DNA of 64,000 nt from Pantoea phytobeneficialis (lineage in GTDB: Bacteria; Pseudomonadota; Gammaproteobacteria; Enterobacterales; Enterobacteriaceae): positions 2,949,723 through 3,013,722 of the forward strand of contig NZ_CP024636.1 in assembly GCF_009728735.1 (NCBI RefSeq), given 5' to 3'. Below, one piece after another: positions 23,165-24,992 of the stretch (the stretch's first letter is position 1; every line of letters starts with the position of its first letter). The position numbers and the translations under genes were made by a program. Below the pieces are notes generated by a model, which was given only the letters and a program-made list of their open reading frames with translations, was not told the origin of the DNA and ran no database searches.

Positions 23165-23662
23165 ATGAGACTGACATCCAAAGGACGTTATGCCGTTACC
23201 GCTATGCTGGACGTTGCCCTGCACTCGCACGAGGGGCCGGTGCCGCTGGCTGACATTTCTGAGCGTCAGGGCATTTCGCTCTCCTATCTGGAGCAGTTAT
23301 TCTCGCGTCTGCGTAAGCACGGTTTGGTTGCCAGTGTCCGTGGTCCGGGCGGCGGTTATCTGTTAGGTAAAGATGCTGGCGCGATTGCCGTAGGTGCGGT
23401 GATTACCGCCGTTGACGAATCCGTTGATGCCACCAAATGCCAGGGCAAAGAAGGTTGCCAGGGCGGTGAACGTTGCCTGACTCACGTTCTGTGGCGTGAC
23501 CTGAGCGAACGCATCAGCGAATTCCTCAACAACATCACTCTGGCAGAACTGGTCAACAACCAGGAAATTCTGGATGTTGCTGACCGTCAAAACGCCATCG
23601 ACAATCGTCGCTTCCAGACTCACCGCGTGCAGGAAACCATCAACGTTAACCTGCGTGCGTAA
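23165..23662 (+). CDS. iscR: Iron-sulfur cluster transcriptional regulator IscR
   Basis: 165-residue Rrf2-family regulator. The winged helix includes [20 protein letters not shown] and [32 protein letters not shown]. The [2Fe-2S] ligands Cys92, Cys98, Cys104 and His107 are all present. Holo-IscR represses its own operon and apo-IscR activates suf in E. coli. An earlier in-frame start at 23078 would place 29 extra residues inside the promoter, so the family start [11 protein letters not shown] was chosen. It leads a reduced operon of only iscR and iscS, so autoregulation here would no longer sense the full Isc pathway it encodes. Confidence 0.96.
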
Positions 23663-23676
23663 TCCGCTCTCTTTCG

Positions 23677-23702
23677 GCCTTTCCTGCTAAGGCAGGGAAG
23701 GC
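23677..23702 (+). other. Intercistronic hairpin between iscR and iscS
   Basis: GCCTTTCCTGC and GCAGGGAAGGC form an 11-bp stem (one G-U pair) with a four-base loop and no T-run. E. coli has a structured iscR-iscS intercistronic region that protects iscR mRNA after RyhB-directed decay, and this hairpin is in the same place. Confidence 0.65.
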
Positions 23703-23751
23703 TGAATCATGCTATAACGTCGTATGATTTTTTATACGGAGCTTTAGCGCA

Positions 23752-24924
23752 ATGAAATTACCGATCTACCTGGATTACGCGGCAACGACGCCTGCGGATC
23801 CGCGTGTCGCCACCAGAATGATGCAGTTTCTCACCCTGGATGGCACGTTCGGTAACCCCGCTTCCCGTTCTCACCGATTTGGCTGGCAGGCTGAAGAAGC
23901 CGTTGATGTGGCACGCAACCAGGTTGCGGAGCTGGTCAATGCCGATCCGCGTGAAATCGTTTTTACTTCCGGCGCGACTGAAGCTGATAACCTCGCCATC
24001 AAAGGTGCGGCACAGTGCCATCAGGCGCGCGGCAAACACGTCATTACCAGTCAGACCGAACACAAAGCGGTGCTCGACAGTTGTCAGCAACTGGAGCGCG
24101 AAGGGTTTGAGGTCACTTATTTGCAACCCGGCCGTGATGGCATCGTGACTCCCGACATGTTGGCTGCGGCGCTGCGTGACGACACGGTGCTGGTTTCGTT
24201 GATGCATGTAAATAATGAAACCGGCGTAATTCAGGATATCGCCGCGCTTGGCGCTTTGTGTCGCCAACGTGACATCCTGTTCCATGTCGACGCCACGCAA
24301 AGTGTGGGTAAGTTGCCCATTGATGTCAGTGTCCTGCCGGTGGATTTGATGTCCTTCTCGGCACACAAAATTTATGGCCCGAAAGGTATCGGCGCGCTCT
24401 GGGTTCGTCGCAAACCGCGTTTGCAGATTGATGCGCAAATGCATGGCGGCGGTCATGAGCGCGGCATGCGTTCGGGTACATTGCCGGTGCACCAGATTGT
24501 CGGCATGGGCGAAGCCTATCGCATTGCGCGTGAAGAGATGAGCAGCGAAGTTGCGCGACTAGCGGCACTGCGTCAGCGCTTGTGGCAGGGCATCAGCGCG
24601 CTGAGCGATGTCACGCTGAATGGATCGCTGGAGCAGGGCGCACCAAATATCCTCAATATCAGTTTTGCCCACGTTGAAGGTGAATCGTTGATTATGGCGC
24701 TGAAAGATCTGGCGCTCTCTTCCGGTTCCGCCTGTACCTCGGCCAGCCTCGAACCCTCTTATGTGCTACGCGCGATGGGCGTTGAGCAGGAGCTGGCACA
24801 CAGCTCACTGCGTTTTTCGCTAGGACGCTTTACCACCGAAGAGGAAATTGATTACGCCATTGAGCTGGTCAACAAAGCGGTAACCCGTCTGCGGGCGCTG
24901 ATGCCTGCGGCAAATTCTCGCTAA
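23752..24924 (+). CDS. iscS: Cysteine desulfurase IscS with truncated C-terminus
   Basis: 390-residue PLP enzyme that takes sulfur from cysteine. PLP lysine [12 protein letters not shown] (Lys206) and active-site Cys328 in [15 protein letters not shown] are present, and the alignment with E. coli IscS (404 residues) is gap-free until residue 385. After TRLRALMP the E. coli tail of 19 residues ([11 protein letters not shown]... ) is replaced by five (AANSR). That tail is known to contribute to IscU binding. Directly downstream is pepB: iscU, iscA, hscB, hscA, fdx and iscX are absent at this locus. The enzyme can still serve tRNA thiolation and other sulfur acceptors. It is intact apart from the tail and looks under selection. 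Confidence 0.93.
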
Positions 24925-24941
24925 TTATCGTTTAACAGCAT

Positions 24942-24964
24942 CCTTCCGCCGGTCTGGCGGAAGG
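24942..24964 (+). other. Perfect hairpin between iscS and pepB
   Basis: CCTTCCGCC and GGCGGAAGG are perfect 9-bp arms with a 5-base loop, without a T-run. It lies exactly at the junction where six isc genes are missing, and may be a transcript-processing structure or attenuator. Confidence 0.6.
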
Positions 24965-24992
24965 TGATAACTCACGCATACGGAGCCTCGCG

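Follow-up and report, generated by a model that had tools for sequence, protein, structure and literature searches.

The isc operon of Pantoea phytobeneficialis is cut to iscR and iscS, and the loss of iscU-hscA-fdx is genus-wide and recurrent rather than peculiar to this genome, with CyaY lost too. Taken as a whole, sequence comparisons make it very probable that Suf builds the iron-sulfur clusters and that IscS is given over to supplying TusA and ThiI with sulfur. A genome with isc shrunk to iscS and a complete suf operon at another place is already known, that of M. tuberculosis, whose ISC operon is described as truncated to iscS in the part of PMC10848736 consulted. The present case differs from that distant phylum in that iscR stays beside iscS, the loss repeats within a two-system order and graded intermediates are found. 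As far as the open-licence literature shows, repeated loss within Enterobacterales, co-loss of CyaY and partner-specific erosion of IscS are new. Searches of that literature brought up nothing about the loss of isc in Pantoea, Erwinia or Rahnella, and a survey cited in PMC11559095 may already list some of these bacteria as SUF-only. The latter paper, from 2024, sets out in the sections consulted a two-system ISC/SUF model for E. coli and other Enterobacteriaceae, and the consulted portion of a Pantoea stewartii iscR paper (PMC8882988) discusses that gene in terms of the two-pathway regulation of E. coli, without any mention of iscS or iscU.

The window analysed here, a stretch of 64,000 nt of the P. 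phytobeneficialis genome, carries the gene order trmJ-iscR-iscS-pepB, with iscR, iscS and pepB present as intact frames (Table 1). IscR, IscS and PepB were named by NCBIfam equivalog models with curated cut-offs; IscS passed both of its models (TIGR02006, 672.8 against 643.2 bits; NF010611, Table 1) and is 78.7% identical to E. coli IscS over 385 aa. In E. coli K-12, iscU, iscA, hscB, hscA, fdx and iscX occupy the position between iscS and pepB, which in the window is a gap of 68 nt for which tblastn (E 0.05) listed no isc gene remnant. These results confirmed the preliminary description, made from the letters of the window, in which the operon was said to be reduced to iscR-iscS, with pepB 68 bp further on and the six genes missing in between. 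An assembly error at 24.9 kb, which would have undone that account, is very unlikely as the cause of the truncation because the same order is seen in 12 of 12 other genus loci that were read (L173, L203, L214-L223) and P. agglomerans HJS002, whose chromosome is complete (L044), agrees: trmJ and pepB were found there, pepB starting 178 nt past the matched part of iscS, and iscU was not found. The locus therefore resembles the E. coli iscRSUA-hscBA-fdx-iscX operon in its place, neighbours, IscR boxes, and catalytic and TusA-binding residues of IscS, but it is without the six downstream genes, the genome is without cyaY, and the IscU tail and the Fdx, HscB, CyaY and ACP residues of IscS are eroded.

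Table 1. Features of the truncated isc locus, in positions of the window
Feature	Position	Strand	Remarks
trmJ	22288..23031	+	Left neighbour of the isc operon, conserved; 81.7% to E. coli TrmJ
Type-1-like IscR box 3, outermost	23024..23048		Overlaps the end of trmJ; 19/25 to type-1 consensus
Type-1-like IscR box 2	23049..23073		19/25 to type-1 consensus
Type-1 IscR box 1	23074..23098		22/25 to type-1 consensus
iscR ([2Fe-2S] regulator)	23165..23662	+	NF008110, 331.7 bits (cut-off 275); cluster ligands kept
iscS, 390 aa, without IscU-binding C-terminus	23752..24924	+	NF010611, 695.8 bits (cut-off 548)
Residual IscS end, replacing the last 24 residues of E. coli IscS	24892..24921	+	
Deletion junction, 68 nt	24925..24992		At the position of E. 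coli iscU-iscA-hscB-hscA-fdx-iscX
pepB	24993..26279	+	Right neighbour, conserved; NF003450, 764.4 bits (cut-off 437)

Profile searches of the whole genome (5.7 Mb in 5 contigs) found no iscU, hscA or fdx elsewhere, and neither IscU, HscA, HscB, Fdx nor IscX was found in the genome searches of P. phytobeneficialis. The sole NifU_N domain (PF01592) belongs to a 297-aa frame on contig C4 (L242), where this NifU adjoins NifS (608.6 bits, cut-off 530.75) within a nif cluster. The nif region matches the nif cluster of a Pantoea sp. At-9b plasmid, its closest relative within the plasmid collection, at 87% over 75% of the 18-kb query. That a plasmid-type NifU replaced IscU and so freed the isc genes would agree with the location of this only NifU_N domain, and also with three genomes of group g166 (G200, G361, G420) that carry a single NifU_N match at ∼1e-46, of NifU grade by score alone. 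We consider it exceedingly improbable and rejected NifU as a general replacement for IscU, since NifU_N is absent altogether from 32 of 35 congeners, and those read at the locus are also without isc genes. The remaining three each have one match in a long frame (280, 280 and 319 aa), which we read as NifU. In the same search NifU_N was matched in 24 of 24 order-level genomes, one of them weakly (G052, 30.6 bits).

The other partner genes were surveyed in 40 genomes, 24 of the genus (P. phytobeneficialis included) and 16 of the order, which is the scope of the counts for Suf, CyaY, HscA, HscB, Fdx and IscX. None of the 24 genus genomes gave a match over the cut-off for HscA or Fdx (14/16 in the order for each); for HscA, DnaK-grade matches below the cut-off occur in all genomes, and for Fdx the genus yielded one sub-cut-off match of 26 bits. 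IscX (10/16 in the order), the HscB C-terminal domain (15/16) and CyaY (15/16) were likewise matched in 0/24 genus genomes. A-type domains number exactly three in each genus genome, and we read them as ErpA, SufA (inside suf) and NfuA, ErpA being assigned by length and elimination only; this leaves no place for IscA. The gene cyaY lies outside the isc operon, and its loss is concluded from the P. phytobeneficialis matches to cyaA and dapF, which adjoin ∼0.39 kb apart with no cyaY match between them; the corresponding E. coli interval spans 1,062 nt and contains cyaY.

The genus genomes do carry Suf: SufB was found in 24/24 of them and in 0/16 order genomes. In P. phytobeneficialis, sufA, B, C, D, S and E follow one another in order (L240), matching their E. 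coli counterparts at 68, 89, 88, 66, 71 and 68%. Thus, of the two routes envisaged in the preliminary description, by which Fe-S assembly was handed either to Suf or to relocated genes, the first is in keeping with a complete sufABCDSE, and the second was dropped because no relocated isc genes were found in the own-genome and genus searches. ThiI (84% to E. coli) and TusA (81%) are also present, the latter with yhhQ and zntA matches alongside, as in E. coli. In the mechanism that we favour, the operon would have been cut to iscR-iscS in an ancestor of the genus, and cyaY lost as well. SufBCD would assemble the clusters on sulfur from SufSE, and SufA, ErpA and NfuA would carry them; NifUS would serve nitrogenase, and IscS would give persulfide sulfur to TusA (for mnm5s2U in tRNA and for Moco) and to ThiI (for s4U and thiamine).

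Two minor observations concern these gene families. In three congeners (G005, G017, G020; L145-L149), sufB seems to be split by frame breaks. P. phytobeneficialis also carries a third IscS-like cysteine desulfurase (L241:8302-9555, contig C2), 45% to E. coli IscS, next to a 238-aa protein without an NCBIfam match (E 1e-10) and a protein resembling a transporter. It was considered as IscS, NifS or DndA, and its scores fall under all three cut-offs.

The same route appears to have been taken independently in several Enterobacterales. Among 392 genomes of the family, NifU_N was found in 278 and in none of the other 114, some 40 of which exceed 3 Mb by hand count, many others being small genomes. 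Large-genome relatives of E. coli without ISC are a place to ask why ISC is kept elsewhere. The window IscS was matched in 391 of the 392 genomes, a count that includes other cysteine desulfurases; the exception, G418, has neither IscU nor IscS at the thresholds set and may reflect an assembly gap. Within 8-kb flanks of the locus, iscU was not found in Pantoea spp., Erwinia persicina, Rahnella laticis, Rouxiella badensis, Serratia symbiotica or Candidatus Regiella insecticola, and Erwinia sp. OLFS4 and Tatumella morbirosei keep it.

A tree of TrmJ and PepB (118 rows; loci whose stretch was without either protein, short IscU-bearing stretches and many small genomes among them, were dropped and identical rows merged) required at least five changes of iscU presence. 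A 58-row maximum-likelihood tree gave six, or seven if the locus L154, described below, is counted as a loss. Topology tests, picked after the first tree was seen, rejected a tree uniting all 30 IscU-less rows in a single clade (p-AU 4.8e-56, with a log-likelihood 175.6 lower), the joining of g142 to the Rahnella-type loss (p-AU 0.008) and the joining of the Erwiniaceae-type group to the Rahnella-type plus S (p-AU 0.00035), where S comprises g29, g129, g137, g166 and bin_27; the Rahnella-type joined to S was not rejected (p-AU 0.52). Because the joint clades were rejected, the trees point to at least four independent losses: Erwiniaceae-type, Rahnella-type with or without S, g142 and a fresh break in g139. 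More than one loss may be hidden in the Erwiniaceae-type group, since the placement of Tatumella, on a long branch, is uncertain.

We then compared the end of IscS in the presence and absence of iscU. The window protein has five residues after LMP, as initially described, where E. coli K-12 has 19 after LSP, and the C-terminal IscU-binding segment is absent. In the 118-row set, an intact tail (at least 8 of 9 conserved residues) was found in 61/61 rows with iscU, the fragment-bearing L154 being counted here, and in 0/57 rows without it. Among 189 distinct IscS sequences, the full set of nine residues is present in 103 of the 109 accompanied by iscU and in none of the 80 without. In each of four independent pairs on supported branches the tail goes with the presence of iscU, a number of pairs with which a sign test cannot go under p 0.125. 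E. coli IscS deleted for residues 376-404 or 374-404 binds IscU poorly or not at all, as cited in the part of PMC2854127 consulted. The window IscS is also C-terminally shortened, as known here from its sequence, but this loss is natural, repeated, shorter (14 residues) and joined to other changes of the protein surface.

For those other surfaces, contact and mutant residues were taken from the consulted part of Shi et al. 2010 (PMC2854127), and 57 distinct IscU-less sequences, corresponding to tree groups, were compared with 108 IscU-bearing ones. Another 27 sequences without IscU, most of which come from small genomes, were treated separately. The TusA residues W45, E49, D52, R55 and R237 are kept at 0.996 in the 57 sequences. 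Catalytic positions, which we take to be H104, D180, Q183, K206 and C328, have a retention of 1.00 in all IscU-less groups. By comparison, the nine residues affecting CyaY/IscX are kept at 0.68, a value equally low in 11 of 20000 random, equally conserved sets, these draws treating positions as exchangeable and ignoring descent; position counts are not phylogenetically independent. Within this set, R220, G234 and M239 are kept in 57/57 sequences, followed by R340 in 51, R223 in 37, R225 in 36, R116 in 29, E227 in 22 and R112 in 3. Outside it, F89 is kept in 16/57, Y90 in 6/57 and K101 in 4/57; F89, Y90, K101 and R112 have changed repeatedly, in separate clades. The IscU contact a8 plus E347 (0.88 kept) shows no erosion beyond background (3739/20000 draws), and the erosion of the R220/R223/R225 trio alone (0.76 kept) is not significant (1550/20000). 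The 27 sequences set apart behave alike, with 0.98 of the TusA residues and 0.58 of the CyaY/IscX set kept.

These values bear on whether IscS simply evolves faster in IscU-less lineages, the relaxation not being specific to any partner. Retention of the background conserved core does drop, from 0.99 to 0.93-0.95 in the free-living groups and to 0.90 in the other 27 sequences, as such a general relaxation would predict; that it accounts for the pattern is nonetheless quite unlikely, given that the TusA and catalytic sites do not fall while the CyaY/IscX set does, and that the same four positions change again and again. Sequence comparison thus indicates that further partner-docking surfaces of IscS are eroded beyond the tail, and a partner-specific relaxation is the reading we retain. 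The residues would have lost constraint because their partners (IscU, HscB, Fdx, IscX and CyaY) are gone: the C-terminal helix and tail for IscU, K101 for HscB, R112/R116 for Fdx, IscX and ACP, and R223/R225/E227 for CyaY and IscX.

Published mutants, in the portions of the sources consulted, help to assign these residues. Mutations of R220, R237/M239 and R340 abolish ThiI binding, and F89E and R116E lower it too (table in PMC2854127); K101E/K105E abolishes or reduces HscB binding and leaves Fdx binding (PMC5037179), R112E/R116E weakens Fdx binding (PMC3750173), and R112/R116 are newly proposed, modelled contacts of ACP (PMC13343975). Because R220, R237/M239 and R340 are retained and R112 and K101 are lost, the residues most needed for TusA and ThiI appear to be kept and much of the ISC-partner surface lost; the split is imperfect, since F89E and R116E also affect ThiI. 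The repeated losses make it possible to ask independently which partner each IscS residue serves, the ACP contact R112 included.

Scars of lost genes were found in other genomes. In G406 (locus L154), a partial iscU, whose best match covers residues 35-86 and is followed by a stop, lies directly before pepB, and its sister L258 carries a full isc operon; we consider L154 a very recent break of the operon. Its IscS has all 13 listed groove residues and a tail altered only near the end, which is lengthened to ARRPAAM. Fragments of hscA remain between iscS and pepB in G361 and G420, a broken iscX in G178, and weak matches to the iscX C-terminus occur at six loci (E 5e-4 to 2e-3), three of them in the S group. 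The hscA-scar genomes keep 13 of 20 tail consensus residues, with Y90 and R112 changed and K101 kept, and IscS of old losses (Pantoea, Rahnella) is without the tail. S. symbiotica (L114) is off-pattern, the tail being gone and R112 and K101 kept.

In the newest loss IscS is still almost unaltered, so its decay appears to come after gene loss. The intermediates fit an order of gene loss, then groove, then tail, and so accord with the earlier proposal that the tail eroded after the genes were lost. If the tail had instead been lost first, or for another reason, making iscU dispensable, IscU-bearing rows without it might be expected; there are 0/61, and L154 combines a partial iscU with 13/13 groove residues and an almost complete tail, which makes this sequence of events very improbable. 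More speculatively, ISC loss in Enterobacterales may be a repeated, ordered process. Scaffold genes would go first and the Fdx/ACP/HscB groove quickly afterwards (Y90 and R112 earliest, K101 later), perhaps because docking of ACP or other partners to no purpose is selected against, and then the IscU tail; in parallel, the suf promoter would be rebuilt as Suf turned from a stress system into a housekeeping one. We offer this scheme tentatively and with some doubt. If it were true, nature would have run a partner-by-partner mutagenesis of IscS.

Finally, we examined the regulatory elements around iscR and suf. Three 25-bp boxes start 141, 116 and 91 bp upstream of iscR (Table 1), scored against the type-1 consensus; the two type-1 boxes of E. 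coli score 24 and 22 of 25. Matches of at least 20/25 in the 64-kb window number two, both being the box 1 site, one on each strand, and at least one box scoring 20 or more is present at each of 21 other loci, with or without iscU. The window IscR has the ligand pattern C-x5-C-x5-C-x2-H, so that the earlier statement that it keeps all four cluster ligands holds; among loci with an IscR match, the pattern is found in 70/74 IscU-less and 109/121 IscU-bearing ones. Read naively, cluster-loaded IscR would still repress iscRS. IscR with its autoregulatory boxes may report on Suf-made clusters and tune iscRS to cluster status.

The retention of IscR boxes before iscRS would also make sense if IscS mattered for clusters, that is, if it went on assembling them unaided or passed sulfur to SufBCD or NifU. 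Such a role has been proposed for the orphan IscS in M. tuberculosis, where the activities of Fe-S enzymes draw on IscS as well as Suf according to the part of PMC10848736 consulted. We judge this unlikely for P. phytobeneficialis, because SufBCD has its usual donor in SufS and SufE, NifS accompanies NifU, and the cluster-partner residues of IscS erode while the TusA site is kept. Donation of sulfur to TusA and ThiI remains the role that we prefer for IscS.

At the suf promoter, the type-2 box of E. coli scores 26/26. Upstream of sufA in 21 genus genomes (22 stretches, the P. phytobeneficialis locus being included twice), the best type-2 matches reach 18-19/26, which is the background level, 185 matches of at least 18 occurring in the 64-kb window. 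Since no recognisable type-2 box is present there, an E. coli-like IscR-suf circuit would be weakened. The aligned position of the E. coli box is taken by a 27-nt element, ATTATCCCTGCAAAACAAGAGGTTGAA, identical in 17 of the 21 genus genomes. This element (L240/L139 in P. phytobeneficialis, L124-L144) sits in an otherwise variable promoter.
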